A DNA stretch of 64,000 nt from Mesostigma viride (lineage: Eukaryota > Streptophyta > Mesostigmatophyceae > Mesostigmatales > Mesostigmataceae), in the NCBI GenBank assembly GCA_009746045.1, contig RPFO01000072.1, positions 1,575,716 to 1,639,715 of the forward strand, read 5' to 3'. A program made the translations under genes and the position numbers. Numbering within the stretch: position 1 is the first letter of the stretch; each line of letters opens with the position of its first letter. Shown one piece after another: positions 4,858 through 63,952 of this stretch. The notes under the pieces are model-generated. The model was not told where the DNA came from. It worked only from the letters and a program-made list of their open reading frames with translations, and searched no databases.

Positions 4858-5428
4858 CCACAAATGGACAGGGCTGGCCTGCGACGCCCCACGGTCGCGC
4901 AAGGGCACCGTCGAGTCATGTACAAAACATTGTCTACATGAAGTCATGGTGGGCATTAACGACGGTGCATGTGTTTACAAAGGATTGCCACTCAATGAAT
5001 ATTAATGAATGATGAACATGGGAGTTTGCATGGAAGTGTTTGGTCGTTATGGCTGCCGCTTGCAAAAAGCGGTACCCACATTGTGTCTTGCATGGCATAG
5101 CTGCATTGTCAGTTTCAGTTGTTAGGAAGTAATGAGTAAGGAAATACTTGCATGCAATGAACGGCGACGTCACACAATATACGGTACTATTCGGACTGGG
5201 TTGATGTACTAGTAGTAGGACGCGTGCTGGACGTGCCCGTGAGGGACGGAGCGTGGGATCGACGGTGCGGCAGGCCGGCGCGAGCGCGCGGGATGGGAAG
5301 CCCCCAAAGGAAGGCCGCCGAGCGTTCGCCCCCCGGCGTAGGGCCGGGCCGGTCGGCGGGCTCAACCCGGCGGGTCGAAGCTTTCGGCGGGGGCCTCAGG
5401 GCCCCTGGTGGCGTAGTGCGTCCGAATA

Positions 5429-5456
5429 AGTGGGGGGCCTTGGCCCCCCCACTAGT
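5429..5456. repeat. GC hairpin in macrosatellite tail (also ~9498 and ~13579)
   Basis: GGGGGGCC-TT-GGCCCCCC inverted repeat flanked by AGT/ACT, forming a ~11-bp stem with one bulge. It closes a ~210-bp very GC-rich block (from GACGTGCCCGTGAGGGACGG) in copies 1, 2 and 3. A similar architecture (GC-rich block ending in a G/C hairpin) stands outside the array at 17500-17735. Confidence 0.8.
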
Positions 5457-10613: not shown

Positions 10614-13600
10614 GGTATTATGCTATCGTGCTTCTTTGCTTGACGTATTGGGTGCCTAGTGAAATCAGTTTGCTAGCCGTTGAAGGCGTGGGTGTGGCCG
10701 ACGAGTGTCTGTTGTCGTTACACAATATTGGAATGAACGCTGGATTTGTTGCCACGGGACGTACGCTGGCGATGCCGATGGTGAGTCGTTTGTTTCGATG
10801 ACCGGGCTAGTGCCTGCTCTCTTTCTGATGCGTTTCCTCGGTTGCGTTGTTTCCATTGGGCCGAATTCACCTAGTCGCAGCGAAGACATAGCGTAGCAAG
10901 GGTCTGCGTTTCATTTTCTTAGCCGTGCAGGACGCCATCTTCATGGTCCTTCGGGTTTCCCGTGTCAACGTCCGTTGCCAGAGGATCTGTGATGCTTTTT
11001 TCTGGAATATACTGGGCGGTGAAAGCCCCTGTGGATGCTTGCCTGGTCATGAGTTTAGGGCGTCATTTACTGCTGTAGTGGATGCCATTCATGGTGCTTA
11101 CTGCGTAAGATAATCTGCCTTGCTTCGCGCGTGGATTTTCACTGGGCTGAAGAGCGCGTCTGGTAACATGTTTACGTGGTGTATAAGGTGATCAATCAAC
11201 CATTTGTTCATAGAACTGGTTGTCTCCTTGATAGAAGGTGTGACAGTAGAAGGTGTTTTATATTTCTTCATCAAGCATGTCAAAAGTAATCTCCACTGGC
11301 TTACAACCTGAATCTTGCTTTGCTGGGTCTGCTGTGTTCCTGTCTCATTGTGCAGGCTATCCCCTTGGTTGACCAACCAGGTGATTTGTGGTGCCAGTGG
11401 GGCCATATTGGTTTTATTCTCATTTTCCATCCGTGGCAACGGACCGCATGGGCGGGCGGGAGGGCAGAGAGGTCAGGGCAGGCCAGGCCAGGCGAGGCAG
11501 GAAAGGCTGCAAGGGTATGCAGCACAGGTAGGCTGGCAGGCAAGGGCCATGGGGCATGAGCCATGGGGCTTGAGCTACGAGCCTTGCGGCATGGGGTTTG
11601 GGGATGGGGAAAACAGGAGGGCAGGCAGTCAGCCACATCCACATGATTAGGGGCCAGACAGCAATCAGGGGCACCGCGGGCCCACTTATGCATGCCAGGC
11701 ACCCCACCAACCCACGTAGCATGCAAGCCACCCCCATGCCCACGCACGCATGCCACCCCCCCCCCCCCCACAAACCCATGCACGCATGCCAGCCACCCCC
11801 CACACCCACGTACGCATGCCAGCCACCCCCCACACCCACGCACGCATGGCAGCCACCCCACGAACCCAGGCACGCATGCCAGCCCCCCCCTCAAGCCACG
11901 CATGCATGGCAGCCCCCCACCACACCCACGCATGCATGCCACTCCCCCCACACCCACGCACGCATGCCAGCCACCCCCATACCCACCTACGCCCCCCCCA
12001 CACCCACGCACGCATGCCAGCCCCCCCCTCATGTACGCATGCATGCCAGCCACCCCACAAACCCACGCTTGGATGCCAGCCCCCCCACATGCATGCATGC
12101 ATGCCAGCCCCTCCCCACACCCACGCACGCATGGCAGCCGCCCCCCAAACCCACGCACGCATGCCAGCCAACCCCCACATGCACGCATGCTTGCCAGCCA
12201 CCCCACATGCAAACAAGCCCCCCCCACATGCATGCTTGCATTCCAGCCACCCCACAAACCCATGCACGCATGCCAGCCACCCCCACACCCACGCACGCAT
12301 GCCAGCCACCCCACGAGCCCACGCATGCATGCCAGCCACCCCCCACATGCACGTGCATGCAAGCCACCCCCACACCCACGTACGCATGCCAGCCACCCCC
12401 CACACCCACGCACGCATGGCAGCCCACCCCACGAACCCAGGCACGCATGCCAGCCCCCCCTAAACCCACGCACGCATGGCAGCCCACCCCCAAACCCAGG
12501 CACGCATGCCAGCCACCCCCACACCCACGCACTTATGTCACCCCCCACACACACACACGCATGCATGCCAGCCCCCCCCCAAACCCATACACGCGTGCCA
12601 GACCCCCCCACATGCACGCATGCATGCCAGCCACCCCACAAACCCACTTATGCATGCCAGCCACCCCCGTCACCAACGTACGCACACCGCCCCCCCCCAC
12701 ACCCACGCATGCATGCCAGCCTGCCCCGCCCGGGCGGCCCACATGTGTCCATGGCAGCTCCCCCCCACACCCACGCATGCATGCTAGCCACTCCACAAAC
12801 CCATGCACGCATGCCAGCCACCCCCACACCCACGCACGCATGCCACCCCCCCACAAACCCACGCATGCATGCCAGCCACCCCCCACATGCACGCATGCAT
12901 GACAGCCACCCCCCACATGCACGTGCATGCCAGCCACCCCCCACACCCACATACGCATGCCAGCCCCCCCCCTAAACCCACGCATGCATGGTAGCTGCCC
13001 ACCACACCCACGAACGGACAGGGCTGGCCTGCCGCACCCCACGGTCGCGCTCAAGGGCACTGTCGAGTCATGTACAAAACTTTGTCTACATGAAGTCATT
13101 GTGGGCATGACCGATGGTGCATGTGTTTACAAAGGATTGCCACTCAATGAATATTAATGAATGATCAACATGGGAGTTTGCATGGGAGTGTTTGGTCGTT
13201 ATGGCTGCCGCTTGCAAAAAGCGGTACCCACATTGTGTCCTGCATGGCATAGCTTCATTGTGAGTTCCAGTTGTTAGGAAGTAATGAGTAAGGAAATACT
13301 TGCATGCAATGAAAGGCGACGTCTCACGATGTACAGTACTATTCGGATTGGGTTGATGTACTAGTAGTACGACGCGTGCTGGACGTGCCCGTGAGGGACG
13401 GAGCGTGGGATCGACGGTGCGGCAGGCCGGCGCGAGCGCGCGCGATGGGAAGCCCCCAAAGGAAGGCCGCCGAGCGTTCGCCCCCCGGCGTAGGGGCCGG
13501 GCCGGTCGGCGGGCTCAACCCGGCGGGTCGAAGCTTTCGGCGGGGGCCTCAGGGCCCCTGGTGGCGTAGTGCGTCCGAAAAAGTGGGGGGCCTTGGCCCC

Positions 13601-14538
13601 CCCACTAGTCCCCTACTAGTAACTACGATTTATGACGCCCGAAAACTTTGGCCGCGGCCGTAGGCCGAAGGTGGGGCCGTCCCCCGCGCCCCCTAGCGCG
13701 GGAGCGGACGACGTCCAGGACCGTTGCGAGATGGCCAATCGGCGTAGTACAAAGAAAATCCCCAAACCTTGGAGATCGAGTCTCAGGAAGTCTGAACGGG
13801 TGCTGAAACGCTGAACATGTTCAGACTTTTGCGGGCAGGTGGGGCGTCTCGCCAATCCGCGCGGCCTCAGGAATTACGGCGCGTTGACTCTTTTAAACGT
13901 CAAACAAGCTACTGGCGAATGGATCTCTCCTCAAACTTTTCAGTGTTTCCCGTTGCACCACTTTGGACAAGGGGACCAACCGGTGCACGCCGTTTCGAAT
14001 TACGCGCTCGAGGTTAGGGCCACAACGTGAATGGAATGCGATTTTCTGAACGGATGGATCAAATTTGCAGGACGGGTGGAAGGTTCAGAGCCGAACTGGC
14101 GTTCAGTCAGGGTGGGGTGAAATAGTTCAGGCCGAAATTTGGCACATTTTCAATGGAAATACGAACGTAACGAAATTTCCAAGTATCTTCCACCGAAATA
14201 TCTCTAAAGTATATCGCATGGTATAATCGCATGGAAAAAAGTCTTGCTGGGCAGTGGGAACTGGGAATTATTGGCAAAGCGTGCGGCATGCTCGGGGCGA
14301 AAAACAAAGTGACGTGCTGCGCGAGCAATTTTCCTTGTGCTGGCTGGCGATGGCAGGCAACGTAGGCTAGAAAATTGGGATGGGGAATGCGCAGCCATGG
14401 TTTTATACGTCAAAATTTTATGTTTGAAGAGCAAGTGCGAAATTTTATGAGCTGGAGGTGCGTCAACGGAGTGATACCTGCGTGGGAGAGGTCCGTGTCG
14501 CTATGGCGACCTGGAAATGGAATGTCGTTGTAGATTTA
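10614..14538 (+). repeat. Macrosatellite copy 3 (~3,925 bp)
   Basis: Tandem copy close to copies 1 and 2 up to the GC hairpin near 13580. After about 13630 it diverges (a GGCCGCGGCCGTAGGCC block replaces the usual tail) and rejoins the consensus near 14510. The replaced segment contains the dispersed motif ACGAACGTAACGAAATTTCC, also found near 17300, suggesting that other repeats converted or replaced the tail. Confidence 0.85.
11684..13012 (+). repeat. C-rich ~30-bp minisatellite, array 3
   Basis: Same unit inside macrosatellite copy 3. It shares rare variants with array 1 (CACATGCAAACAAGCCCCC at about 12200 and 4010), so long blocks of subunit order are inherited together. Confidence 0.95.
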
Positions 14539-16865
14539 GGTATTGTAGTATCATGCTTAACTGCTTTACGTATTGGGTGCCTAGTGAAATCAGTTTGCTG
14601 TTCGTGGAAGGCTTGGGGTGTGGCCAACGAGCTTCTGCTGTCGCCACATCATATTGGAAAGAACGCTGGATTTTTTGCCACGGGACGTAACCGGCGATGC
14701 CGATGGTGAGGCGTTTGTTTCGATGACCGGGGTAGTACCTGCTCTCTTTCTGATGCATTTTCATGGTTGCGTTCTTTCCATTTCGCCGAATCCACCTAGT
14801 CGCAGCAAAGACATAGCGTAGCAAGGGTCTGCGTTTTATTTTCTTAGCCGTGCAGGACGCCATCTTCATGGTCCTTCGCATGTCCTGTGTGAACGTCCGT
14901 TGCCCAAGGATCTGTGATGCTTTTTTCTGGAATATACTGGGCGGTGAAAGCCCCTCTGGATGCTTGCCTGGTCACGGGTTTGGGGCGTCATTTACTGCTG
15001 TACTGGCTGACATTCATGGTGCTTTCTGCGTAAGCTGACTTGCTTCGCACGTGGATTTTGACTGGACTGAAGAGCGCGTCTGGTAGCATGTTTACGTGGT
15101 GTATAAGGTGATCAATCAACCATTTGTTTATAGAAGGTGTGACAATAGAAGGTGTGTTATATATTTCTTCATCAAGCATGTCAAAAGTAATCTCCACTCG
15201 CTTACAACCTGAATTTTGCTTTGCTGGGTCTGCTGTGTTTGTGTCTCACTGTGCAGGCTATCCCCTTGGTTGATCAACCAGGTGATTTTTGGTGGCAGCG
15301 GGGCCATATACTCTTCTTGGCGTTTTTCATCCATGGCATGTCAACCAACGCATGCATGCCAGCCCCTCCCACACCCACGCACACATGTTAGCTATACCCC
15401 ACAAACCCACGCATGGATTCCAGCCACCCCCCACATGCCCGCATGCATGCCAGCCACCCCACCAATCCACGCACGCATGCCAGCCACCCCCACACCCACG
15501 CACGCATGCCAGCCACCCCACAACCCACTTATGCATTCCAGCAACCCCCACAGCCACTTACGCATGCCAGCCACCCCCCACCCCCACGCACGCATGGCAG
15601 CCACCCCACGAACCCACGCACGCGTGCCAGCCCCCCCTTAAAACCACGCATGCATGGCAGCTCCCCACCACACCCACGCATGCATGCCACTCCCCCGCCA
15701 ACCACCCACGCATGCCAGCCCCCCGACACACGCATGGCAGCCCCCCCCACACCCACGCACGCATGCCAGCCCTACCCCACATGCAGGCATGCATGCCAGC
15801 CACCCCCCACACCCACGCATGCATGCCAGCCCCTCCCACACCCACGCCCGCATGCCAGCTACCCCACAAACCCACGCATGCATGCCAGCGACCCCCCACA
15901 TGCACGCATGCATGCAAGCCACCCCACCAACCCACGCACGCATGCCAGCCCATCACAAACCCACTTATGCATGCCAGCCACCCCCCACACCCACGTACGC
16001 ATGCCGGCCACCCCACACACCCACGCACGCATGGCAGCCACCCCACGAACCCACACACGCGTGCCAGCCCCCCCTAACCCCACGCATGCATGGCAGCCCC
16101 CCACCACACCCACGCATGCATGCCACTCCCCCCCACACCCACGCACGCATGCGAGCCCCCCCACACACCCACGCACGCATGCGAGCCCCCCCACACACCC
16201 ACGCACGCATGCCAGCCCCACCCCACATGCAGGCATGCATGCCAGCCATCCCCCACACCCACGCATGCATGCCAGCCCCTCCCACACCCACGCCTGCATG
16301 CCAGCTACCCCACAAACCCACGCATGCATGCCAGCGACCCCCCACATGCACGCATGCATGCCAGCCACCCCACCAACCCACGCACACATGCCAGCCCATC
16401 ACAAACCCACTTATGCATGCCAGCCACCCCCCACACCCACGTACACATGCCAGCCACCCCACACACCCACGCACGCATGGCAGCCACCCCACGAACCCAC
16501 ACACGCGTGCCAGCCACCCCCTAACCCCACGCATGCATGGCAGCCCCCCACCACACCCACGCATGCATGCCACTCCCCCCCACACCCACGCACGCATGCG
16601 AGCCCCCCCCACACCCACGCACGCATGCGAGGCCCCCCCACACCCACACAAGCATGCCAGCCCCCCCCATGAAGTCATAGTGGGCACCACGGAGTCATGC
16701 TATGATTTAATTTTTTCAATTTAATAATGGGAATGACGGATGGTGCATGTGTGAACAAAGGAATGAAAGGATTGCCACTCAATGAATATTAATTAATGAT
16801 GAAAATGGGAGTTTGCATGGGAGTGTTTGGTCCTTATGGCTGGCTTGCAAAAAGCAGTACCCAAA
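14539..16865 (+). repeat. Macrosatellite copy 4 (truncated, ~2.3 kb)
   Basis: Last and most diverged copy. It keeps the 5' part and a minisatellite (15345-16668). It then passes through CATGAAGTCATAGTGGGCA, a ~35-bp AT-rich LINE-tail-like insertion at about 16690-16728, and the TTGCCACTCAATGAATATTAAT block, and ends around 16865, before the GC-rich hairpin block. The array therefore stops inside a unit. Confidence 0.85.
15345..16668 (+). repeat. C-rich ~30-bp minisatellite, array 4, with higher-order duplication
   Basis: Same family in the truncated copy. It carries an internal duplication of about 446 bp: the block beginning CCCCACATGCAGGCATGC near 15776 recurs near 16222, followed by the same order of variant subunits. 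This higher-order structure is not obvious in arrays 1-3. Confidence 0.9.
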
Positions 16866-17185
16866 TTTCGAAGTATTTGACAGCGAAATATCTGTAAAGT
16901 ATATCGCATGGTATAATTAATTAATGAATGGTACGCTGAAATTCATTGTGCGGGCTCTCTCTGCATGTGATAAACAATTTTAGCTTTGAGGGCATGCAAC
17001 AAGACATGCTAGCATTAAAATGAAATTAAATTATAACATGACTAGTTGGGAGATCATGTACGACATGTAGCATAATTACGTACATGGCCACAATTGTGCC
17101 AATCAGGGCCCTCCTCTAGGTAGACTGTGCTAGGCAATTACAATTAGACAAATAAGGTCATTCAAAAAGGTTTAAGTCTTCACCT

Positions 17186-34117: not shown

Positions 34118-35623
34118 TTAATGCAACTGGTGCGTCTTCTTGTACGCTTCCAGTAAGCGGGCGCACCCAGCTAACTCAGTAGAAGTGCGCCAGGAGTCCT
34201 CAGACTCATGCTGCGCGAATCGCCATCGCACCCGGTACTGTCGCTGAGTCCCCCGACCCCGTTTGACATCCCGGTGTCCCACGATCGCTGCCACCTCATC
34301 CTCCTGTTCCCCCGTGTCCGGATTGAACTCCAACGGGGCCGGGGGATTGACCCGACCCTGAATGGTGTTCTGGTGGTACAACTTGAGCTGGTCACGATGG
34401 AAACGGTTGGACGTGAGGTTCCATGACACTGGGACGTCCACCTGGAACATGACATCGTCGAACTTGGTGAGAACCTTGTAGGGGCCCAGGAACATGGGAC
34501 GAAGCTTAGTCTTCAGCTCCTTCTCCACCTTGTGTGAAAATCGTCCGATCTGTGGGCCCTCCACCAGGACCCAATCGCCCACCTCAATGGACGGCGCCCG
34601 GTTATCCCGCTTGCCGGCTGTCCTCTCCAGATACCGCTCGGTCGCTGCGCGGTAGCCCTGGACTGCACTGTTATGAGCCTGGTGCATCCGCTGCAGCAAG
34701 CGATCAACCCCCTGGCGTGTGTCCAGCTTGACCTGATCCTCTCCCAGTCCGGGGCTCATAAGCAAGTCGGGAGGCGTGAGAGGGTGCCTGCCAGAGTTGA
34801 GGAAAAAGGGGGTAAATCCATGGGCGGCCTGGGGGGCATTGTTCAGGGAGAACTCCACCAAGCCCAGAAGCTCCTCCCAATTGCTGCCCACCGCGTCGGT
34901 GTAGTGTCGCATGGTCTCCTGCACTGTGCGGTTCAACCGCTCCACCAGATGTGACGACGAGCTGTGGTAGGCCGTGCCCAGCGACACCTTGGTGCCCAGC
35001 CGTTCGAAAAACTCCTGCCAGAATTTGGCCGTGAAGAGCTTGTCGCGGTCGGAGATGAACTGTCGGCTGAGCCCGTGGAACCGGAACACGTGCGTCAGGT
35101 ATATCTTGGCGCACTCCTCCGCAGTGAGGTCGGCCGGACACGGGGCCAAGTGACACATGCGCGTCAGGCGGTCCACGAACACCAAGACCATGCTGTTGCC
35201 GCTCTTCGTCTTCTTGAACGGGCCGATGAAGTCCATCATGATAGAATCCCAAGGACCCATCGGATCAGGTAACGTCTTGGGGACGGCTTGAGAGCCCGTG
35301 TTCCTGGACTTCATGATCTGGCACGAGGGGCACTGGCGCACATATGTCTCAATATACTCCTTCATCCCTGGCCAGTAGAAATGTTTGCGGGCCCGAGGAA
35401 AGAGACGGTGGCTTCCTTGATGTCCGCCTAGAAGCGAATCGTGGAGCTCGTGAAGCAAGGCGGCCCTACAAAGCTCCGGGACATACAGCCGCCATTCCTC
35501 CGGCTGGACACTCACGAACAGGCGTCCATCCTGGAACTTGCAAGGGTAGGCACCCATCTGCTGGGGATGCGCCCGGATGGCTTCAAGCGCCGCTTCCTCC
35601 GTGACCGTGAAACGACTGATCAT
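34118..35623 (-). CDS. Ty3-type integrase with C-terminal chromodomain
   Basis: About 500 codons. Residues ~50-110 form the H2C2 zinc finger (LHELHDSLLGGHQGSHRLF ... CPSCQIMKSRN). The core carries the first Asp in MMDFIGPF, the second in ISDRDKLF and Glu in HLVERLNRTVQE. KVLTKFDDVMFQVDV and WNLTSNRFHRDQLKLY mark the C-terminal GPY/F-like region. A chromodomain-like segment follows (EVAAIVGHRDVKRGRGTQRQ, YRVRWRFAQHESEDSWRTST). Integrase inserts the element, and the chromodomain is thought to target it to heterochromatin. The frame is intact; the junction with RNase H at 35620-35623 is a frame break. Confidence 0.9.
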   Translation of the reverse strand: MISRFTVTEEAALEAIRAHPQQMGAYPCKFQDGRLFVSVQPEEWRLYVPELCRAALLHELHDSLLGGHQGSHRLFPRARKHFYWPGMKEYIETYVRQCPSCQIMKSRNTGSQAVPKTLPDPMGPWDSIMMDFIGPFKKTKSGNSMVLVFVDRLTRMCHLAPCPADLTAEECAKIYLTHVFRFHGLSRQFISDRDKLFTAKFWQEFFERLGTKVSLGTAYHSSSSHLVERLNRTVQETMRHYTDAVGSNWEELLGLVEFSLNNAPQAAHGFTPFFLNSGRHPLTPPDLLMSPGLGEDQVKLDTRQGVDRLLQRMHQAHNSAVQGYRAATERYLERTAGKRDNRAPSIEVGDWVLVEGPQIGRFSHKVEKELKTKLRPMFLGPYKVLTKFDDVMFQVDVPVSWNLTSNRFHRDQLKLYHQNTIQGRVNPPAPLEFNPDTGEQEDEVAAIVGHRDVKRGRGTQRQYRVRWRFAQHESEDSWRTSTELAGCARLLEAYKKTHQLH

Positions 35624-36144
35624 CGTCTCCAGGTCCGACGTGACTGTGAACGCGTCCCGGCCGGGTCTGTCTCCGCGCTCGCCTGGTTGACGAATTCGGA
35701 GAAGACTGTGGGCGGGCCGATCGGCTGAAGCTGAAAAATTCCCTGGGGCGGCACCACATGACTAAGGGGCATGCGCGTATGCGATCCCTCCCCCTCCCCG
35801 GGGGCGTCCACGTCCTCGTGGGCACTCGTCTCCTCCAAGAGAGGTGACAAGTCATCACTGGTGGTGTGTCCCAGATGAAACAGGTGGCGGGCCCGGGGAG
35901 ACCGTGGCTCCACGCCGTAGGCGGTCCCCGGGGCGGCCACGGGTACGCAGGTGGTATGAAGCACATCCATGTCCTCGTAGAACCAATAGTCCGCCCGTCG
36001 CGAGAGGGCGTCTGGCACCACGTTGTCCGCGCCCTTGACATATTGGATCTTGAACGGCGCAAACTGTGACAAGTACTCCATCCACCGCGCTTGGCGGGGC
36101 GTCAGGTTGGGCTGCACCAGGAGGTGGGTGAGCGGCCGGTGCAC
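35620..36144 (-). pseudogene. C-terminal part of Ty3 RNase H
   Basis: Starts at RPLTHLLVQPNLTPRQARWM and continues EYLSQFAPFKIQYVKGADNV, VPDALSRR, the typical end of Ty3 RNase H. The following linker to integrase ends in another frame. No reverse transcriptase lies upstream. Confidence 0.8.
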
Positions 36145-47916: not shown

Positions 47917-48045
47917 CCAGACAAGCTGCACTGCCCCTAAGACCCTAAGTTACACAAGATGATGGAGTAGTTTGGTGTTGAAAGGGAAGGTCGAAAGCCT
48001 GCGCTTAATGCACCACCCGTAATTACGAGCGAAAGTACAGCCACC

Positions 48046-49452
48046 ATGGAAAATCCCGTTGACATCGCGCAAAAACAGGCCAAGAGAAAGCGGCAAGTGG
48101 CCGAAGCGGCCCGCCGGTGGAGGTTGAAAAGGAAGTTGACGACTCAATGCATACGTACTCAGGCAATGGAGGGTGGCAACGCCGCTCCCCCTATTCGTCA
48201 AGACAACGTCGGTGCAAGAAGCACCATAATGCCTGGGCATGATGGGTTGCACGCTTTCCGGCCAGTGCCCGGGGCTGCGAGTGTCGCCCGCCCCACGGCT
48301 ATCCCCGCCTGTGCTGCAGTTCGCCCCGTCAACCCCGCTGTGATGACTCGCGACGTTGCCGTGTCGCCACTTTGTTTGGCTACCATCCAAGATCCCCCGC
48401 TGGCACCCACCGGGGCATGCCATTCGGTGCACACCAAGGAAGCATTGCACAGCAAAGGACATACCGGCGTTGCACGTGCACAAGATGCTTCCAAGCGTCC
48501 GGACGCCTGCTGCGGTACACCGAATGCGTGGGAAGCAATGCAGGCCAGGCTGGCAGAGATGACCACCTGTGCAGAAACCCGGGACATTGTTGAGCGGGGC
48601 CTGATGCGGTACCCCCACGTGAGTTTGGGGAAGCGCTTAGGCGCCGGCCTCTTTGGGTCTGTGCACCTTGTCAAGTCCACTTTACCTGGCTTTGACCATC
48701 CTCTGGTCGTGAAAGTGGCAAAGATCCCGCGCGCCACAAACCTCGTGCACATACAGCAGGTAATTGTGGATCTGAGTGCTGGAGTGGCCAGGGAAGCTGC
48801 TCTCATGACCATTGCGGGGCGTCGAGAGGGCACCTGTCCACGTGTCGCAGGATTGTGGGCCCCAGTTGAGACTGTAGGTGGCATAGTCATGGAGATGGTG
48901 ACGGGTGACTTGAAGGCTGCCCGTGATGCCTCCGAATACAACCGTCCCTTTGATGTGCGCACGCCTCCCATCTTGGCGAAGTGCGCCAAAGTTTTATCCA
49001 ATTTGCACTCGGTTGGAATCATTCATAACGATCTTAAGTGTGACAACTTTTTGTACAAGGTTGAGGAGGGCACGGCGGAGCCAACCATCTACATTGGAGA
49101 CCTGGGCCAGGCAACCAGAGTGAACGAGATGGCGCCCATGCGTGTGCCGGGGCAGTCCCGGTGGCACCCGGCCACGGTCTTGCATCCAAGTGCAAAGGCC
49201 TTGAGGGGAACGATACAAGCTCGGCCAGAGCACGATGTTTATGCTTTCTTGGTCATGGTGGACGACCTGTTCAGGAGGTCGCCCAAGTGCTTTGTCCGCA
49301 AGGCAACGGACCCAGTTCTGTGGGAGCTGTGTAGGAAGATTGCTTTTCGACAACAATACAAGCACGATATTGTGTTACCTGACATGGCCGGGCTGGCGGA
49401 CATGTTCCACAAAGCCCGCATATTCGTGCCCGATGCTTACCCCAAGCAGTAA
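48046..49452 (+). CDS. Protein-kinase-like protein, intronless, 468 aa
   Basis: The ATG at 48046 sits in GCCACCATGG, a textbook strong start context. Residues 1-190 are non-conserved: a basic N-terminus (KQAKRKRQVAEAARRWRLKR), then Ala/Pro-rich. The kinase domain runs from about 195 to 440: glycine loop LGKRLGAGLFGSVHL, VAIK-like VVKVAKI with the ATP-anchoring Lys, catalytic loop IIHNDLKCDNFL (HND in place of HRD) and IYIGDLGQA (DLG in place of DFG). HNDLK..N keeps the catalytic Asp and Asn, so activity is possible. DVYAFLVMVDDLF matches the DvySfG helix. No transmembrane segment is seen. The 3' part is duplicated downstream at 49460-49640. The absence of introns next to multi-exon genes could mean retroposition or carriage by a transposon. 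Confidence 0.8.
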   Translation: MENPVDIAQKQAKRKRQVAEAARRWRLKRKLTTQCIRTQAMEGGNAAPPIRQDNVGARSTIMPGHDGLHAFRPVPGAASVARPTAIPACAAVRPVNPAVMTRDVAVSPLCLATIQDPPLAPTGACHSVHTKEALHSKGHTGVARAQDASKRPDACCGTPNAWEAMQARLAEMTTCAETRDIVERGLMRYPHVSLGKRLGAGLFGSVHLVKSTLPGFDHPLVVKVAKIPRATNLVHIQQVIVDLSAGVAREAALMTIAGRREGTCPRVAGLWAPVETVGGIVMEMVTGDLKAARDASEYNRPFDVRTPPILAKCAKVLSNLHSVGIIHNDLKCDNFLYKVEEGTAEPTIYIGDLGQATRVNEMAPMRVPGQSRWHPATVLHPSAKALRGTIQARPEHDVYAFLVMVDDLFRRSPKCFVRKATDPVLWELCRKIAFRQQYKHDIVLPDMAGLADMFHKARIFVPDAYPKQ

Positions 49453-53344: not shown

Positions 53345-53693
53345 CTGGAAAACGCAATGTGTGGGATGGAAGGCACAAAGTTTCACAATCGGGATACGTC
53401 AAAGCATGCAGACCTTGTGGAATGGTCTACGAAAGCTTGGCAGATATCCGAACCACCACGGCAGACCTTATGCTACAGACCATCTGTGCACGGTCAGACC
53501 TTGTTGCTGCCACACACACAATTGATGACTGCACACAGGGCGGCGTTGCTTTCCTCCCGCTGGACCTGGGTACCATCCGCCATGCATGCATGGTGCGGTG
53601 TGAATGGGTCTACATAAGACTGGTAGATGCAACGTGGGGTGCTACCAGACCAATTGTGTTATATAGCATGGAGTTCATGTAGGGTTAACTTAC

Positions 53694-54117
53694 TTCTCAC
53701 GAGCCGTCAGTCCCTCACGCTCCATGGTTGCGCACACAGCTCGGTGGCCCTCCTCCGTCCGCAGCTCAAGCACCACTTCGGTGTGCCCCCAGAACTCGGA
53801 GTGGAGAGTACAAAAGCCGCAGCCATGATTGCTGCCAGACGCCATGAGCCCCATCTCTGCAAACCGCGCCCCGGAATCTAGCAGCCAAAAAAAGGGTACT
53901 CTGACCTCCATCCACGACACAACACCGGTCATGCAGAGGGTCTGCCATTTCCATGGCCACCCCTTGCTGCAGTGGGCGGATCTCGTTATCCAGCAGCCAC
54001 TTGTTGAAGGCATCCGCATCCACATGCTTTGGCCTCAGCGTGACCACGTGATTGCGGGCAGCCGATCGATCCAGCGTTAGGATCCTGAACTGATACGACA
54101 CCACATCGGCATCCGTA
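53694..54117 (-). pseudogene. Transposase exon part downstream of the copia-type insertion
   Basis: Continues the N-terminal exon: DADVVSYQFRILTLDRSAAR, ADAFNKWLLDNEIRPLQQG, then after a frame break FFWLLDSGARFAEMGLMASG and SNHGCGFCTLHSEFWG, the second Asp and C-x-x-C block typical of TNP2-like proteins. The break sits at seven T (53887-53893); with six T the frame would run straight through. The donor GTAAGT is at 53693-53688, after 2 nt of a split codon. Confidence 0.7.
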
Positions 54118-54574
54118 AGTTGGATGGAGACTAGGGACGACGAACAACTGCTGAAGCTGAAAGCGAATGATGATTGTATTACAATAATACAATGAGAGAG
54201 CAAAGGAAGCTGAGGGCTCAGAATGGAACGTCTGGGCAAACTCGGGTGCTGCGGCACTCCCCAGTGCTACGCCTATATGCCTATGGCGGTGCTCCCTGCA
54301 GCACACAACCAGTGGACAACTGTACACTGCAATGCCATGCGACCACGTCACTAGCATCAACTACACTCGGCCCGTCCAGAACCGGATAACCCGGGTCTGA
54401 CGGGTCGAGCTAGAGTCTAGGCACAGTCTGGCACTAACCGCACATCGGTCCACATGACACCTCAGTACCGTACACCCTGCCGTACTGTACTGAGGTGTCC
54501 CGCTCAGCCGCGGTAGGCAATACGCGGCGCGCAGGCCGGAAATCCGTGTGTCAGCCTAAGCATCTCATCTAACT
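54118..54574 (-). repeat. 3' LTR of the copia-type element (457 bp)
   Basis: On the plus strand it begins AGTTGGATGGAG and ends ATCTCATCTAACT, so the ends are AGTT...AACT with a short inverted repeat AGTT(G/A)GATG. Nearly identical to 62148-62604. It contains a second inverted repeat, GACACCTCAGTAC...GTACTGAGGTGTC. The CCGTA duplication abuts at 54113-54117. Confidence 0.9.
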
Positions 54575-54600
54575 CCCATTATGTTTTCCTTTCAGGTTGA
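54575..54600 (-). promoter_or_regulatory. Candidate polypurine tract
   Basis: Minus strand CTGAAAGGAAAACATAATGGG directly before the 3' LTR start AGTTAGATG. Purine-rich with three pyrimidines near the end; the position is right for plus-strand priming. Confidence 0.5.
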
Positions 54601-55688
54601 AGGCTAGCGACTTCAAGCCTGACCCTGCCCAGCTAGGAGACTGACTCCAAGCTGACTGAGGTGCTGAGCAACTGACACCCATACTGCAACATCTGGACTG
54701 AAAAAGATGGGCCCCAGAACTCGTGCAATACTTGTGATGGCATCACGTTTAGCTCAACATGCCCGGGGAGTTCCTCCTCCTCGCGAGCTCACAAGGGAGA
54801 TAGCTATGCCTGTCTGCCTATCCAGGGAGTGCATCACCAGCCAAGAGAGCCATTGTAAAAATGCCAAGGTAACCGTTTAAGAGGTTCCATGTTGTTCCAT
54901 CATCATCGCCCACTCAGAGAGAAAATACCCAGCCAGGCTGGGTCAACTGAGCTCAGGTTACCTGCAACCTGAGGAGTGACAGTGGACAGGTTTATTGCAC
55001 CCTGCACTGTCCATGTTGTACCTGCACAACATGTGAGGACCAGCCACCCCTGCCCTGCACAGAGGGGGCTGAAGTCCGAGTGACAGGTGACAGGACTATG
55101 ACATCCTGGACCTGGCCACGTTGCACCTGCACAACGTGTGAGACCAGCCACCCCTGCCCTGCACATGGGTGACTGAAGTCCTGGTGACAGGTGACAGGAA
55201 TATTTCATCCTGCACCTGTGCTGAGCACGTTGTACTAGACAACATGACAGCACCCATGCCTTTACTGCCACTGAACAGTAAGGCCAGGTGGCCCAGGATA
55301 TCCACAGTGAACTGGGGTCCTGGGTAACCACCTGTCAAGGGAGCTTTGACCCTCCACTTGAATGGGGGCACCTGAGCCACTGAGCTCAAGGCCAATCCAC
55401 CAAGGCATACGCCCTAGTGAAAAAGGTGTGAGATACATCCCATGCCCACCTATGAAGGTGTGCATAACGAAATTCCATGGTGTTGAAAAAATCAAAACAG
55501 ATTTTATTGGGCATAGGGCACGCAGATGTATGAAAAACAGACTCCAACCAACCCCCCTTGCTGGAAGCCACAACCTACCCCTTGGACCTGCCCAAGGGGT
55601 ACTGGGTGACCTAGGCGGCCCTGGTGAACAGGACCCTGCTAGGCGTCCCCCCTATGGGGCAGGGTTGCCTGCTTGCCATAGGGGTTCA
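54601..55688 (-). other. Non-coding 3' region of the copia-type element, with ~106-bp tandem duplication
   Basis: No coding capacity is recognised between RNase H and the polypurine tract. Two tandem ~106-bp copies (GTTGTACCTGCACAACATGT ... GTGACAGGTGACAGG; 55014-55094 and 55120-55199), each with ACCAGCCACCCCTGCCCTGC, form a candidate cis element such as an RNA-packaging or export structure. Confidence 0.6.
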
Positions 55689-57060
55689 TCAAGTGGTACA
55701 ACAGCTGGTATTGTCAGCTGCCTGCTGAGGCACTTTAGTGAGTGCATCAGCAGCGTTGTGTTTGTCCTCCACGTGACGGGTGGACTCCCAGTAGGTGGAC
55801 TCCTGTTTCAGGACCACCCAGTCAAGATCAGTGTGGACAGCATAGGGGTTAGCAAGGAAACTGAGGACTGACTGACTGTCAGTGAGCAAGTGTGCCACCA
55901 CCCCAGCATTGCTGCCTGCTTGCATCTGCAACCAAACCAGCACATGATTCAAGTACCTGGCATGAAGCACTGCTGACACCACTGCCCTGCACTCAGCAGC
56001 ATTGCTGCTGACAGCCTTGCGTCTATGCAACCGGCTGTACCATGAAATGAGAGACAAGGGTGCATCATCATTCTGCACAAAATACAAGCCTGACTCCCTT
56101 GCCTGCAACTTGGTAATCTGCCTGGACTCCATGGAACTATCCATCATAGCTTGGATGTGAATGGTTTTGTGGAGATCCAAGGAGTGCAAGATAAGGGGAG
56201 GGCCTTCCTGGAGAGTTTTGGTGATGGCTTTGTGACCTACTTGCATCAAGACATCATCATCAACTCTGCTAACCACAGCCAGGTGAGGTGCACACGTTGA
56301 GCACAACCACCCCAGCTTGCCTCTAATGGTAGGACAGGCTCCAGGTTTGATTTTTGTTTGCAAAACCTCCAAGCAGCTGTGCATGTAATCATTGGGAGAG
56401 TAGAGTGCACACACCCACTGGTTTTGATGCTGCTGGAGTTGTAACATTGTGCCACAAAATTTTATGGCAGTGGTGCCCAGCTCTACTTGCTTGCCAATCT
56501 CAAAATGCTGTGACACTTGTTGAATAAAATCATCCACAGCACGCCTTGGCCCAGCAATCAGCTGATCATCCCCATGCCACACAAAGGTGAGAATGCCATG
56601 AGGGTGTGGGACCACAAAGAAGCAAGGGTCTATGTCATCATATCTAGCCCCTAGCTTTTCAAACACAGCCTGAGCTGACATCCTGAAAATGCGAGGAGCT
56701 GATTGCAGCCCTTCAACACCTATGTTAGCTTTCAGGTACTGCTGAGGGATGTGTTTTGCCCAAACTCTGGGAGTGGAGACTACATACACCTGACCATGCC
56801 ACACTTGTTGTGCTATCTCAGGTGAGCCTTTCAGGAAAGCCCTTTTAATGTCTGTAGCCTTACATACATAGTCATCCCCATCATTGAGATGACCCACAAA
56901 GACAGACAGCAAGATTTTTAGGGATGTTTGCTGAATGCCTGGCGTGTACAACTCTGCCTCTGTCAGATCAGTGGTGCCCTTGAACTCTGTCACACAAGGT
57001 CTAGCATGAAAATGACTGACCCATCTGCTGCTGGCTTATGTTTACACACAAACTTCAGGC
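55689..57060 (-). CDS. Copia-type reverse transcriptase and RNase H
   Basis: After a second -1 frame change (56990-57060) the frame reads HARPCVTEFKGTTDLTEAEL (K-A-R-L-V equivalent), CKATDIKRAFLKG (first catalytic Asp), NIGVEGLQSAPRIFRMSAQA (the YGLKQAPR region) and FVWHGDDQLIAGP (HGDD where YVDD is usual; both Asp kept). RNase H follows: ISWYSRLHRRKAVSSNAAEC, LLTDSQSVLSF, HTDLDWVVLKQ and VEDKHNAADALTKVP, the typical copia ending. Stop at 55689. The RT-RH order and motifs put the element with Ty1/copia, not Ty3. Confidence 0.85.
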
Positions 57061-57730
57061 GCAAGTGCTTGCACCCTGCAGGCTTTTTGTCAATAGGTGT
57101 GACAGGGGGAGTATGAGAAGGACTAAGAGGATCTGGCACTACCCATTCTTCCCTGGCCTTGTTAAAGGCCTCCACCCATTTTAGGAATCCTATGTGTGTG
57201 CGACAGTCTTGCTCTATCTGTTCATAAGAAAGAGGAGACATTTTAGCCACATCATGCTTGCCCAATCCAAATGAGTTGGGATGAAGTTTTTGGTTGTGAA
57301 CCAAGTCTGCCACACAGGGTTCTTGCCCTGGGGCATACTTGGGTGTAGCAAATTTTACAGAAGCAATGTTGGTGTTAAGAAGTTTTTCAAGAGAAATTTT
57401 GAAATGATTCAGATCAACACCACCCATGTCCTGGATGGATAGTCTATCACTGGAGATGAGGACACCAGGGTAACAGAGAAAAGGATCCCCCAACAAAGCA
57501 TTCCCTTTATAACCTTCCAAGACCTGAAAAGGAGTGGGGATACCGAGTATAGTCAACATGACCTGACCTAATACCTTGAGGGATGACTGCCCTGAGAAAT
57601 CAGCCACATGGTGCCAGGGTGAAGGTTCCAAAGGCAATGGGGCACAGCCAGGGCACTGATAATGCTGACCTGGGCTTGTGTGTCCACTGCAACCATAAAT
57701 GGGCTATTGTCATTCTGCCCAACCTTCCCC
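57040..57730 (-). CDS. Retropepsin-type aspartic protease, downstream of the integrase
   Basis: The active-site block FMVAVDTQAQVSIIS is D-T-Q-A where most retropepsins have D-[ST]-G-A. It sits at the end of the integrase frame. After a -1 frame change at CCCC (57639-57642) come PLPLEPSPWHHVADFSGQSS, LKVLGQVMLTILGIPTPF and GNALLGDPFL, the flap region and the late I/L-L-G-x-x-x-L block of retropepsins. The protease cleaves the Gag-Pol polyprotein. It is followed by a linker and the start of reverse transcriptase (KHLRLKFVCKHKPAADGS). No other protease motif lies between the zinc knuckles and the integrase. Confidence 0.75.
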
Positions 57731-59380
57731 ACCTTAGCTGATCCTGCAGCAGTTTGAGCTTTGGCTCTATGAGCTGCTTGTAAAATGCGAACAGCGTCTG
57801 CTAGGCTGCGTTTGGAAGGTGCAGCTAGTGGCTGAGCTATGTTCACACTTGAAGAGGTGATAGGTTGCTGATCACCTGTTTTGCCAATGTGACCCTCTGC
57901 TGCAGGGGGCCAAGCCTGCAGTGACTGCCTGCAATCATCAAGGGTGACCTGGGTGTCACAGTGGGTGTGGCTCTCACACTCACCAGTGGGTGTTCCAAAC
58001 AACCACTCACTGGGCAACGCTGGGATGCCAGGCAACTGTACAGGGCTGTCGGCCAACAGCTCTTCCTCCTCTGCCACGTCTGACACAGTTGGAAAATACA
58101 ATTTCATCCTGTGAGGTGAACACCTGTGAATTTTTCCCGTGTCATTGTGTTTAACTAACACTGTCCTGCCAGTGGTGTTAAACTTTAGGATGGTGGCTGG
58201 CCCATGCCAGGTACCCACCTTGCCTAGTCCCGACTCCTTGTAGAATAGGACCTGATCCCCTTCTCTGAAGGTGGGACGTGGATGCTTTGCATCCTTGACA
58301 GCTAACCTGCTAGCTGTCTGTGCTCGCTGTGCGTTGTATAGGGCTAGTACCTCAGGTGGATAAATGCCTGCATGCAATCCATCTGGTGTAATGACCACCC
58401 CTTGTGGGGTTTTCATGAGTGGCCTCCTGTTGAGGACTTGGCACAACCTGGTGGACCACAGAGCTCTGTCAGCATATGACCCACTGTCAGCCAGCAGATT
58501 GCCATCTTCTTTGGCTACAAGGGTTTTAATGGACCTGATGGCCCTTTCAATAATGCCTTGCCTCTCATGATCTTCTAGCCCAGCCAGATCAATAGCCTCA
58601 CACCCTGGTTCATTGGCAAGACACGTGAACTGCTGATCCAGTAACAATGCCTCCACAGGGTAGTACCTGGCCTGAGCAATCAAGAGAGCCCTGAGCAACT
58701 GTGTCTTGTCCATTCCAGGTAATGGTTCAATGGTTGTGTACCTTGACCATGCATCTTTAAGTGCCAAGTAAGATTGTCCTTTGATATGAAAGACATCTCC
58801 TACCACCCTGCCCTTGCTCTTAGGTGGGGTAGCTACATGCCACTTAGGGGGTTTGGGTGCATTGAACTGACAATGCTGGCAGTGGGATCTGACCACCTGG
58901 CATGCACGTCTGAGTGCTGCCCCCCCTATTGCTGCTGCCACCACCTCTGCACTCACTTCATGCCCATAAAGGAAATGCAACTGCAAAGCAAGCTCCTGAA
59001 AACTGATCTGAGCATCCTCTGCTGGGGACACTCTGCACACCTTGGGAACCATAGATGTGAAGGTTGGTTTAGAGACATAATCTTCTGAAACCAGCTGTAG
59101 CACCTTTCCAGAACTGCTCACTGCTCTGACAGTGGGGCATGCAGATGAAAGAGGTGAAGCAGGCACACTCAAGCCAGCATGAGAGGGAGACTCACACTTC
59201 TTGCCGTAAGGAGGCCGCTTGCAGTCCTTGGGGTCACCGTGGGGCGGCCCGTGGCACTTGTGGCACAGGACGTCCAAATGCCCCAGCTCGTCCACGTTCT
59301 TGCGGCAGGTGGGCCGCAGGTGGTACTTCATGCCACAGCGGGTGCACCGCTGAGAAGACTTGTCCTCCTTGTCCTGCTTC

Positions 59381-59463
<83 letters not shown>

Positions 59464-60129
59464 GCTGGAGCTGCCCCCCTTGGAGGGAGACTGCCCCTTA
59501 CCCTTGCCCTTGCCCCAGCCCCTGCCCTTGCCCTTGCCCTTGCCCTTGCCCTTGCCCTTAAACATTTGTCCCAGCAGGGACTTGACTTCTGCCATAGTGA
59601 CAGGTCTCTTGCTCCTGTCTTCCCTCTCCCTATCCTCCTCCTCCCTCTCTTCCCCCCTGACCCTCTTTACAGAGGTGCCCATGGCCCCCTGGCTAAGGGG
59701 AGCCAAGGCCAGCTTGATATAATCCAATGCCTCCTTCATGTCCTCCCAGTACTTTGCCATTCCTGTTGCAAGCATAGCGTAGGTGTTTTTGTCAAGTTTG
59801 AGTTTCTCAAGGAAGGAACGCAGCAAGAACTTGTGATCTAGCTGCTGGACATCAGGACGTGCTTTGATGGCTAGCTCATATTTCTTTGTCTCAGCCACAT
59901 AGTCCACTGATGTGACCCTGTATTCCTCTACCCACCTGAATGCCCCATAGATGTCCACAGATGAGGGGGTGGAGAGGAGGTCAGTTAGCTCCTTCATGAA
60001 AGCCTCCCAAACTGCCCTAGCCTGCGTGTCCTGCCACTTGGGATACCTACGCTGGAAGACAAGAATGAGATTCTGAATCTGAGAAGAGGACTGATGGTAA
60101 AATCCCCCTGCATGAGAGATCCAAACCAA
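57568..60129 (-). CDS. Gag zinc-knuckle region and integrase (single frame, ~853 codons)
   Basis: Residues ~1-170 are Gag-like helices (FQRRYPKWQDTQARAVWEAF, ELAIKARPDVQQLDHKFLLR). Then come a basic Lys/Gly tract, ~28 Asn encoded by an AAC repeat, and zinc knuckles CTRCGMKYHLRPTC and CHKCHGPPHGDPKDC. After a ~70-aa linker with no protease motif comes the integrase: H..H plus CQHC, first Asp in RVVGDVFHIKG, second in EALLLDQQF, Glu in the HERQGIIERAIRSIK region, then a C-terminal SH3-like part (FREGDQVLFYKESGLGKVGT; HRCSPHRMKLYFP). The frame ends in the start of the protease (FMVAVDTQAQVSIIS), then stops at 57568 after a frame change at CCCC (57639-57642). Confidence 0.85.
59381..59463 (-). 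repeat. (AAC)n poly-Asn tract inside gag
   Basis: About 28 AAC codons on the minus strand (GTT on the plus strand), between the Lys/Gly tract and the zinc knuckles. The same trinucleotide forms the 380-bp array at 42820-43200. Confidence 0.95.
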
Positions 60130-62103
60130 TTCTTGACATTCAGTTCCTCCCTAGCCAGCTGCAGAGAGAGAAGTGCATGATTCCCCTGCTCCCTAGTATA
60201 CCCCTCAGGCAGCCCCCTGACATTAATCCTATCCACAGGACGGTTTTCATTGTAAGTGGGCAACCTAGAGGGGGATGCAGGGGGAGAGGGAGAAGATGGT
60301 GTTGCTGCTGCAGCATTCACAGGAGAGACCTGCTGAGAGGGAAGTGCTACTTGAGTGAGCTGAGCAGGATGGGCAAACATGGGCTGTGTAGGAGGGTTAG
60401 ACAACATAGGGGTGGGCTGGGTGGGGGTGTGAGTGTGTGTCACTTCCCGCCTCCTGCTGCGGGCCTCCTCCCAATCATGGAAGGTGGGAGAGAGGGACAC
60501 TTCATCGTCAGTAGGGTTAGTAAGATCATGATGCAGCCAGGTAGGCAGCCACCTACCCGCCCCTCTCAGGATGGCGTTGTGTAGGAGCTCCAGCGCACCA
60601 GACGCACCCTGCTGCCCTGCACCCTCCTCCCTGAGAGGAGAGCCTGCAGGGCAGGCAGCAGGTCGTCGCACACCCTGCGTGTGCCTGCTTGGAGGTTGGG
60701 CAGGCCCAGGATGTGCGTGATGATTGCACACACCAGGCTGCCCGCCTCCGCGACGTGCATCTGCTGGCTCCTGTCGGCCAGCCCACGGAAGGAGGCTGTG
60801 GCTGTCTGTATGGCACGCCACACGGCCTCATCACCCAGGGTGATGAAGTCGCGACCTTCCAGGTCGCCCTCCAGCAGTGCTGGTTGCTGCCCAGCTGCGG
60901 TGGGACCCTGAGGCCCCTCCGGCCCTGCCAGGGACTTGTCCTTGTTGCGGCTAGAGGGGGCCTGCCCCCCAGAGCCGCTGGAGGTGCCCGTGACACCCTC
61001 CATGGGGGCTGCATCCCCCGCCAGCGCCGGAGGCGCCGGCGTCGCTGCCGGGGTCCCTGCGACCCCGGGCGCTTGTGTCGCCGCCGGGGTCCCTGCGACC
61101 CCGGTGGCCTCCTCAGCCACCTGGCCCCCCACGCTGGGCGGGGGAGCCTGCGGCTGAGGTTGGACCCTCTGACCTGCCAGAGGGTCCTGGGTGGCTTCAC
61201 CACCCATGGGCGTGTTGGGGGCGTCTGCCGCCCCGCGCTCCGTCGCAGGCGGCATCGCAGCCGCCTCACGCCTATCCGGGCCCCAGCCAACTGGCGTGAC
61301 TTGGGGCCACGGCCCCAACGGAGTCAGCGCGATCTCCTGTCGGGCGACCACGCGCAGCGCCTCTCTCTGGCGCTGCCTGGACGCCCACTGATCAACAGTG
61401 CCGGGGTTGTGCCTCGGCCGATTGGCGAAACAGTACAGCCAAACTGCCACCTGAACCAGTGGGACTGCATCCTAAGACGCCCCTCGATCAGCGTGTGCAC
61501 CCGATGAACCTCTATCGCGTGGATCTGCTCATCTGGAAGCAGCTGAAAACGTTGGTGCATGATCCGGCCGTTCACCGAAATGAACGCCGGGATGTCGTCC
61601 TCCCCAAGGGGGAGAAAATGGGGGGGCGCCCGAACGCGACCGGGGGCGGAACATGTTCCCCATACCGGTCAATGTCCATGGTGGCCATCTGTCGGCCCAC
61701 GGAAAGGTTGCCAGACGTCGCAGGTGTCTGCGACGAAAGCTCGAGCGAAGGCCGAGGCCTCGCAGGCTGCACCTCGCCATCCTCCTCGAGGAATCACTCC
61801 GCTCACGACCCCCGTCACCTGCGACGGGGGAATTCGTGCCCGGGGGACCTGCCCCCCAGGTGCCATGGCGGACGAACCGCCAGTGGCAAACGGCCGACCG
61901 CTCGCCATCCCCCGGGCGCCGGGCCCCACCTGCGGGCCCCGACGCCTGGGTTGGTCAGCGACCACCGTGCGGAAGGTGACGTTGGGCGTCACCCTCGCAT
62001 CGTTGGTGGAGGGCGTGCCCTCCGGCGAAAGGCGGGGTGAGGTGCGCCTGGCAGGCGCCTTCCCCTTGTTGTTGTTGCCGTTGTTGCCGTTGTTGGAAGC
62101 CAT
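60130..62103 (-). pseudogene. Gag N-terminal region, several frame breaks
   Basis: ATG at 62103 (MASNNGNNGNNNKGKAPARR), Pro/Arg/Gly-rich N-terminus, then RYGEHVPPPVAFGRPPIFSP and NGRIMHQRFQLLPDEQIHAI in other frames, FANRPRHNPGTVDQWASRQR, a Pro/Ala-rich linker, an alpha-helical part (ALLEGDLEGRDFITLGDEAV; HVAEAGSLVCAIITHILGLP) and a final NENRPVDRINVRGLPEGYTR. At least four frames are needed. These changes could be decay or assembly indels in GC-rich homopolymers. Confidence 0.55.
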
Positions 62104-62127
62104 ATCTTTTTTTTTCTTGTAAAAAAA

Positions 62128-62147
62128 ATATCGAACTTTTCAGTCCA
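62128..62147 (-). promoter_or_regulatory. Candidate primer-binding site
   Basis: Immediately inside the 5' LTR the minus strand reads TGGACTGAAAAGTTCGA. TGG pairs with a tRNA CCA end, and the match would require a tRNA ending TCGAACTTTTCAGTCCA. The tRNA is not identified. Confidence 0.5.
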
Positions 62148-62604
62148 AGTTGGATGGAGACTAGGGACGACGAACAACTGCGAAAGCTGAGAGCGAATGA
62201 TGATTGTATTACAATAATACAATGAGAGAGCAAAGGAAGCTGAGGGCTCAGAATGGAACGTCTGGGCAAACTCGGGTGCTGCGGCACTCCCCAGTGCTAC
62301 GCCTATATGCCTATGGCGGTGCTCCCTGCAGCACACAACCAGTGGACAACTGTACACTGCAATGCCATGCGACCACGTCACTAGCATCAACTACACTCGG
62401 CCCGTCCAGAACCGGATAACCCGGGTCTGACGGGTCGAGCTAGAGTCTAGGCACAGTCTGGCACTAACCGCACATCGGTCCACATGACACCTCAGTACCG
62501 TACACCCTGCCGTACTGTACTGAGGTGTCCCGCTCAGCCGCGGTAGGCAATACGCGGCGCGCAGGCCGGAAATCCGTGTGTCAGCCTAAGCATCTCATCT
62601 AACT
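62148..62604 (-). repeat. 5' LTR of the copia-type element (457 bp)
   Basis: Same ends and length as the other LTR. The three differences lie in CTGCGAAAGCTGAGAGCG against CTGCTGAAGCTGAAAGCG. The promoter for the minus-strand transcript should lie here; no clear TATA box is assigned. Confidence 0.9.
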
Positions 62605-63952
62605 CCGTATTGTCAGTGATCTTGAAGCTATCCATCCAAAGCACGATTGGGATCACAACGACGGGCAAGCCCAGCCGCGGGCGGGCCTGACACTTGCGGA
62701 GGGGGCCCTTCTGCCAGTCCCTGAAATCACCTATGGGCTGCATCAAAGGGTGGCCATGGGGATCCCTTAGATCATTCCCATCAGCATCTGTTTCCACGAT
62801 GCCCCCGGTCGTGACTCCGTATGTCCGTGACAAGAAGTAGTCGTGTTTCCCAACTGTGCCCTCTTGCTCCATTTCCGCGAAGTCTTCTTCAGAGTGAACC
62901 CTGATATGGCGCTTGTAGGTCCCTGCCTCCACCAATTCCGTCCAGTTGCATGCAAATAGCTCCTTCTCATGAAACCCGGGGCTTCCCCTTTTCAGGTGCG
63001 TGTGTCGCCACTTGTTGGCATACAAGTACTGCACCTCGAAGAGCACCTTGACAGAATCCGAGAGCTTGTCGTCACGCTGGTACAGGACGCCGGTCAGCCT
63101 CACCGGGGCCCCATAAGGCTTGCCTTTGTTCACACCGTCCTCAGTCACCGAGACCTCGAGGAAGTCACCGACCGTGAACGTCTGGCCAGATAGCGCTATC
63201 CCACGAAGGCGGCACAGAGGATGGTCGTGGAAGAAGGTACTCATGTGGAAACCTGTGCGCCGGCCATCCGCAAGCACCTCGGGCCGCACATGCAGGTGGC
63301 GCGTGACATTGTGCTGGCGTAGCAGATGTTGAAGCCGGGTCTTGATGCTGCACGTGTGGGCGACAGAGCCGTTAGGGAGTTCAATTCGCGTGACATGGTG
63401 CGTTGGGAGCTCCTTTTCCACCTTCCTGACCACAGGGAGCGTGAGCCGGTCGGCATCTTCCGATCGGTACTTGGGGTCTTGTCTCATGGCAGTTCTGCAC
63501 AGCACGCCTTCGTCAGTCCGAGAATCGATTCGCTTATGGTATGCAAACTCCAGAAACTCCGAGTGCGACCGAAAGATCCCGTACCCAGTCTCATTTCCCT
63601 GGCCGTCTGTTGGGGCCGAAGGCACTGAGCATGGATCAGGAGCTGCCACCGTCATGCGCCCGTCTATTTTCCCCCCTGGACAATGGCTAAGTCTCCGTTG
63701 CACGGCGGGCTCCTCAACGGAGTCAGCACTATTCCCGCCGTCGCCTCAATCCCCTGATTCAGTTGCATCCACTTCATCTGACCCAGCGTCGCGCGACAGA
63801 GCCCTCCCAGCGTCAACATCATCACCAAGTGCAGCGTTATCCACCAACTCGTCCTCAACGTCCTCATCGCAGTTGTTGATGCCAATGACGGTGTGAGCCA
63901 CGGCGATGTCTTGACGCCTTTTTTTCTTGCTGAAGAGATACCGGTGCGGCAT
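62605..63952 (-). pseudogene. Transposase N-terminal exon (interrupted)
   Basis: ATG at 63952 (MPHRYLFSKKKRRQDIAVAH), acidic stretch (NNCDEDVEDELVDNAALGDD), in-frame TGA at 63746-63748, then a continuous frame. Features: LRQHNVTRHLHVRPEVLADG; a BAH-like segment (GQTFTVGDFLEVSVTEDG ... KVLFEVQYLYANKW); DWQKGPLRKCQARPRLGLPV then VVIPIVLWMDSFKITDN, where the Asp after WM is a candidate first catalytic residue. The frame is cut by the copia-type LTR at CCGTA and resumes at 54112 in phase. A BAH-like domain in such a transposase is unusual. Confidence 0.65.

Follow-up and report, generated by a model that had tools for sequence, protein, structure and literature searches.

Probable IN-PR-RT-RH order of pol in an LTR-retrotransposon lineage with copia-type reverse transcriptase from Mesostigma viride

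LTR retrotransposons are assigned to superfamilies partly by the order of their pol domains, and pipelines drop elements with other orders as artefacts. Gypsy elements of the Gmr1 type with a copia-like pol order were reportedly described by Goodwin and Poulter in 2002. These elements have the order protease (PR), integrase (IN), reverse transcriptase (RT), RNase H (RH) and are an earlier example of altered pol order among LTR retrotransposons; to our knowledge, no Gmr1-type element has IN before PR. The order in Ty3/gypsy elements (Metaviridae) is PR-RT-RH-IN (PMC6317226), and passages of a survey of fungal elements give IN an internal position in copia, flanked by the protease and RT, and the final position in gypsy (PMC3248453). 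Text searches of the literature for the order IN-PR-RT returned no paper, subscription papers and Repbase being outside their scope, and the passages on pol order seen in other literature describe known orders only.

The elements of the alga Mesostigma viride considered here, belonging to three families, share with Ty1/copia (Pseudoviridae) an RVT_2-type RT, the position of RT before RH, IN upstream of RT, and, in the window copy, LTRs and a 5-bp target duplication, but differ from Ty1/copia in having PR after IN, the PR motif DTQA, the RT motif HGDD, a D-29-E integrase, and, again in the window copy, LTR ends other than TG..CA. The order PR-IN-RT-RH that defines Ty1/copia was found at none of 30 family-1 loci and in none of the frames fetched for families 2 and 3. 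With Ty3/gypsy these elements share an uninterrupted run of PR, RT, and RH, a G-P C-terminal module in IN, and perhaps a gypsy-like H2C2, while the RVT_2-type RT and the position of IN upstream of PR set them apart; the gypsy combination of PR-RT-RH-IN with an RVT_1-type RT is absent from these families. Judged by RT sequence these elements belong with copia, and judged by order they lie outside the copia definition. The reading preferred here, with a probability of about 0.85, is that Mesostigma viride carries a lineage of LTR retrotransposons with a copia-type RT in which pol has the order IN-PR-RT-RH instead of PR-IN-RT-RH.

A conventional copia family from the same genome (L041/L047, L084) serves as a control; its order, read by eye from motifs, is gag, zinc knuckle, PR (DSAA), H2C2, IN, RT. 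This family has in common with the present elements the host, an RVT_2-type RT, and unusual residues in RT and in the PR loop, but differs by having the usual order, PR before IN. It is abundant (L035-L064, L084), and both the HVDD in its RT and its D-S-A-A protease loop are unusual.

Architecture of the element

The window, a stretch of 64,000 nucleotides of Mesostigma viride DNA analysed as a whole, contains an LTR retrotransposon with the following features, in the order of the element:

62604..62608, minus strand: 5' target-site duplication ACGGA, with T as an ambiguous sixth base
54117-62603, minus strand: whole LTR retrotransposon, from paired LTRs and the 5-bp target duplication
62147..62603, minus strand: 5' LTR, 457 bp, beginning GTTAGATG and finishing CATCCAACTT, not TG..CA
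59302..62139, minus strand: gag region, broken into several frames, with an Asn repeat at its end
59221..59346, minus strand: two zinc-knuckle-like motifs (59221-59265 and 59305-59346), read directly
58870..58980, minus strand: H2C2 zinc-binding domain of integrase, from its motif (PF17921 E=0.43 in a family-3 copy)
58531..58809, minus strand: integrase core (PF00665 rve E=7.9e-4 for the piece 58480-58839; 3.2e-5 in a family-3 frame)
58795-58797, 58636-58638, and 58546-58548, minus strand: integrase catalytic D, D, and E, with 29 residues between the last two
58093..58269, minus strand: integrase C-terminal domain with W-x-G-P, from alignment
57637..57702, minus strand: first part of retropepsin, PFMVAVDTQAQVSIISALAVPH (family PR profile i-E 2.7e-13; Pfam retropepsin matches in unbroken copies)
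57673-57684, minus strand: DTQA of retropepsin
57422..57619, minus strand: remainder of retropepsin, in a different frame and containing ALLGDPFL and a flap-like DFSGQ (family PR profile i-E 2.1e-41)
57476-57499, minus strand: ALLGDPFL block
57008..57073, minus strand: start of RT (fingers) in the frame of the PR end, from alignment to P0002
56256..57014, minus strand: copia-type RT (PF07727 RVT_2 E=6.5e-7, 29.6 bits against a cut-off of 31.6)
56826-56852 and within 56550-56585, minus strand: RT motifs DIKRAFLKG and HGDD
55731..56144, minus strand: RNase H motifs (D, E, D, D), with P0001 72% identical across 225 residues
54117..54573, minus strand: 3' LTR, 457 bp
54112..54116, minus strand: 3' target-site duplication ACGGA

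Direct LTRs and a short target duplication, by which LTR retrotransposons are recognized, are both present in the window copy, and its LTRs are identical at 454 of 457 positions (3 differences). When both host flanks are joined to rebuild the empty site, one host frame is uninterrupted; the LTR pair, the target duplication, and this intact frame show that the element entered as a single unit. The sequence TGGACTGAAAAG follows the 5' LTR, where a tRNA primer site would be expected, and no tRNA was found in the window for comparison. The element sits in a long ORF on the minus strand (62537-63745 and 53690-54266), the frame of which resumes beyond the insertion and which has a weak BAH-domain match (E=7.2e-4).

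Pfam gave no gag match and no protease match in the gag pieces scanned, and neither a zinc-knuckle nor an RNase H match for the window element. The window copy is frame-broken, with PR split over two frames and a further break in RT near 57.01 kb; these breaks do not create the order of IN before PR. Inside gag there is a long Asn-coding trinucleotide repeat (59380-59470). Elsewhere in the window are large repeated blocks with tandem arrays (2435-16868), where several frames are open for 250-460 codons at once, an ORF on the plus strand resembling a protein kinase by eye (47971-49452; HNDLKCDN), and, on the minus strand, an ORF for a gypsy-like integrase belonging to a different LTR element, also recognized by eye (34118-35761).

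Domain order across copies and families

A sequence-only reading of the window had proposed that zinc knuckles, integrase, protease, RT, and RNase H follow one another in that order on the minus strand. All of the motifs quoted in that reading were located on this strand, and the order of zinc knuckles, H2C2-integrase, retropepsin, RT, and RNase H was confirmed there, with IN-PR-RT repeated at 30 of 30 family-1 loci and in two divergent families. The linker between the zinc knuckles and the integrase, said to lack D-[ST]-G, does so: none is found in the 80 residues from the last knuckle to H2C2, and Pfam has no match in 58981-59346 (zinc knuckle to H2C2) at E<=10. The account of the motifs needs correction in that a D-S-G-S occurs within IN (58488) and a second D-T-Q-A within gag (60030), neither of which is a protease. 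The same reading held that a retropepsin upstream of IN, or copies with conventional order, would count against it. Pfam finds no retropepsin upstream of IN in the piece from the zinc knuckles to H2C2 or in the gag pieces scanned, and the profile made from the families' own PR, searched against frames of the element, has a single site and no second. The best score of a profile from 14 host retropepsins, 1.9 bits at the family-3 PR, is too weak to decide. No conventional-order copy was found among the 30 loci cut out or in families 2 and 3, all of which run IN-PR-RT.

Family 1, to which the window copy belongs, occupies at least 53 places in the Mesostigma viride genome (439.9 Mb) when a frame of 860 residues is used as query; this is a lower bound from 55 matches at 53 distinct places, two of them being split in two. 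Thirty loci, the window copy included, were cut out for motif order, and in 30/30 the motifs run IN, PR start, PR end, RT start, RT A, RT C. The entire PR is in the IN frame at 25 of these loci, and IN through RT is a single frame at four. The other 26 of the 30, the window copy among them, have a frame that is broken somewhere on the way from IN to the C motif of RT, and at 20 of the 30 the frame change is restricted to the PR-RT interval. This PR-RT frame change in 20/30 copies could reflect a single break passed on from copy to copy, or a feature with a role in expression. The breaks are provisionally read as decay, or as a damaged subfamily spreading, because families 2 and 3 show that PR and RT can share one frame. 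Of 435 pairs of family-1 copies, 301 are identical over 1683 bases and the minimum identity is 99.2%, so these copies form one recent family; since members of a family hardly differ, the independent support for the order comes from the three families and not from copy number. A public Mesostigma viride gene model of 343 residues, P0003, matches the window element at 168 of 170 residues and is a single protein spanning the tail of IN, DTQA and the rest of PR, and the start of RT.

The genome holds two more families, represented by the RT-RH pieces P0002 (family 2) and P0001 (family 3). In family 2, the locus L079, upstream of a P0002-type RT, is stop-free for 733 residues and contains H2C2, IN, the DTQA PR, and the start of RT; the protein of L083 is the same over the overlap, and L080, in which RT is joined to a tandem repeat, is uninformative on order. 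In family 3, the locus L081, upstream of a P0001-type RNase H, is stop-free for 916 residues from H2C2 through RT, with DTQA at residue 472, LLGEPF at 535, DIKRAFL at 751, and HGDD at 843, and L082 is as L081 but for one residue in 890. The Pfam matches of L081 are Integrase_H2C2 at 49-84 (E 0.43), rve at 100-161 (3.2e-5), Peptidase_A2_2 at 471-534 (0.042), gag-asp_proteas at 469-540 (0.12), and RVT_2 at 672-871 (6.1e-7); each is below the Pfam cut-off, and alone they yield the order H2C2, rve, retropepsin, RVT_2. Identity to family 1 is 58% (family 2) and 48% (family 3) for IN, 61% and 58% for the PR stretch, and 63-70% for the RT of both. The integrase D, D, and E are invariant in the three families and the D-29-E spacing is kept. 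DTQA and HGDD, which had been flagged as non-standard, proved to be traits of whole families, not lesions of one copy: DTQA replaces D-[ST]-G-A in all three, and HGDD replaces YxDD in all three (window, P0002, L081). Taken from these sequences, IN before PR looks like a stable design shared by three families and not damage to one copy.

P0001 and P0002 are labelled as Prorocentrum lima. Many places in the Mesostigma viride genome match them at 100%, and for the two proteins 134 and 150 of the matches listed are at 98-100%; on the basis of this identity, a horizontal transfer linking Mesostigma with Prorocentrum lima was rejected. The label is most likely contamination, and therefore gives no evidence of another host. 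A protein search with the 860-aa IN-PR sequence found no relatives among word-sharing proteins of 473-1505 residues. Scans of viral and bacterial contigs also found none; the four bacterial pattern matches (L001-L004) equal the chance expectation.

Affinities of the domains and competing explanations

The RT is of copia type, matching RVT_2 in the window element (E 6.5e-7), P0002 (6.9e-6), and L081 (6.1e-7) with scores of 26.3-29.7 bits, slightly below the cut-off of 31.6; Pfam has no RVT_1 match in the window RT, P0002, or L081. The Y-x-D-D of Ty1/copia RT is not found, its place being taken by HGDD. The RT aligns with that of the conventional copia family of this genome (blastp E 4.6e-7 in a comparison of three targets). 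One possible origin of the order is capture, in which an IN of gypsy or retrovirus type was joined before PR-RT-RH, amounting to a circular permutation of PR-RT-RH-IN, and PR did not move within a copia element. The IN contains H2C2 and the D, D, E residues, has a C-terminal module with W-x-G-P, and aligns collinearly, if weakly, only with the gypsy IN of the window (hhalign P 0.038, blastp E 0.34), with no alignment to the copia IN of the same genome; the weak Integrase_H2C2 match in family 3 (E=0.43) is also on the side of capture. All of these IN signals for gypsy versus copia are nevertheless at noise level, and the A2 profile is below zero on every target. On this sequence comparison the integrase looks, weakly, at least as gypsy-like as copia-like, and capture has a substantial chance of being correct, somewhat short of even. 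The W-x-G-P domain is probably an SH3-like barrel, as modelled from the single sequence, with beta strands at pLDDT of about 70 although the rest of the model is poor. Searches of solved structures with IN and RT gave unrelated matches only.

A second alternative accepts the order and holds that the retropepsin with DTQA is inactive or serves a structural role, with cutting done by the protease of a conventional element or of the host. Instead of the D-[ST]-G of Ty1/copia retropepsins, the three families have DTQA, in which the glycine of the catalytic loop is Gln, and both a conventional copia PR and gypsy-like retropepsins exist in the genome. Isolated PR pieces match gag-asp_proteas in 3/3 families (E 0.062, 0.11, and 0.0038) over nearly the full model, the Pfam retropepsin matches of the family-1 piece being at E 0.06-0.12 and the family-3 piece also matching Peptidase_A2_2 (E=0.0012) and Asp_protease_2 (E=0.044); all Pfam retropepsin matches of families 1-3 fall below the Pfam cut-offs. 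The sole non-retropepsin Pfam match, from a longer PR piece, is to an F-box associated family (E 0.12), and Pfam found no retropepsin when the whole 343-residue P0003 or 733-residue L079 frame was used. The profile of the three families' PR against the PDB has a single match at E<=10, the retropepsin DDI1 homolog 2 (E=1.3), and a profile-profile comparison gave P 0.11 at the correct place. Each of these matches is weak taken singly. Structure models of P0003 and IN were poor (pLDDT 33.5 and 40.3).

Between families 1 and 2, PR is among the best conserved segments, with 60/88 residues identical versus 63/97 in the IN core, while the linkers are far less conserved (42/134 for the IN-PR linker and 47/106 for the other); dN of PR is 0.30, with dS saturated. 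Conservation like that of the IN core and far above the linkers points to a working domain. In the loop, D, T, and A are invariant in the three families, as are the D-F-S-G and L-L-G-x-P-F blocks, which exceeds what a spent domain should keep. The DTQA domain may well be a working retropepsin, and a dead or structural one is improbable.

A unique recombination event, a nested insertion, or an assembly error as the source of the window copy is very nearly excluded, since its several frame changes from gag to RT are the only point in favor, while the order is common to 30/30 loci, the public gene model P0003, and two divergent families, the LTR pair and target duplication mark a single insertion, and families 2 and 3 refute this reading outright.

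Proposed polyprotein processing and the meaning of the order

If the order IN-PR-RT-RH is as read here, a Gag-IN-PR-RT-RH polyprotein would be made, with integrase directly after Gag. The retropepsin would dimerize in the particle and cut in the two variable linkers flanking PR, releasing IN upstream and RT-RH downstream, so that the junctions Gag/PR, PR/IN, and IN/RT would give way to Gag/IN, IN/PR, and PR/RT. The order of polyprotein processing would then differ from the conventional one, as the earlier reading had also anticipated, and reverse transcription and integration would proceed as in other LTR retrotransposons. More tentatively, and doubtful as a whole, the three families could be the first seen of a separate lineage in which a gypsy-like IN was joined before PR alongside a copia-type RT (or a gypsy-order pol was circularly permuted), with an active DTQA retropepsin.

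Three families at high copy number with near-identical copies show that pol is workable in a different order and that IN can adjoin Gag. These elements would also allow a direct test of whether polyprotein processing depends on where PR lies and on the D-[ST]-G loop.
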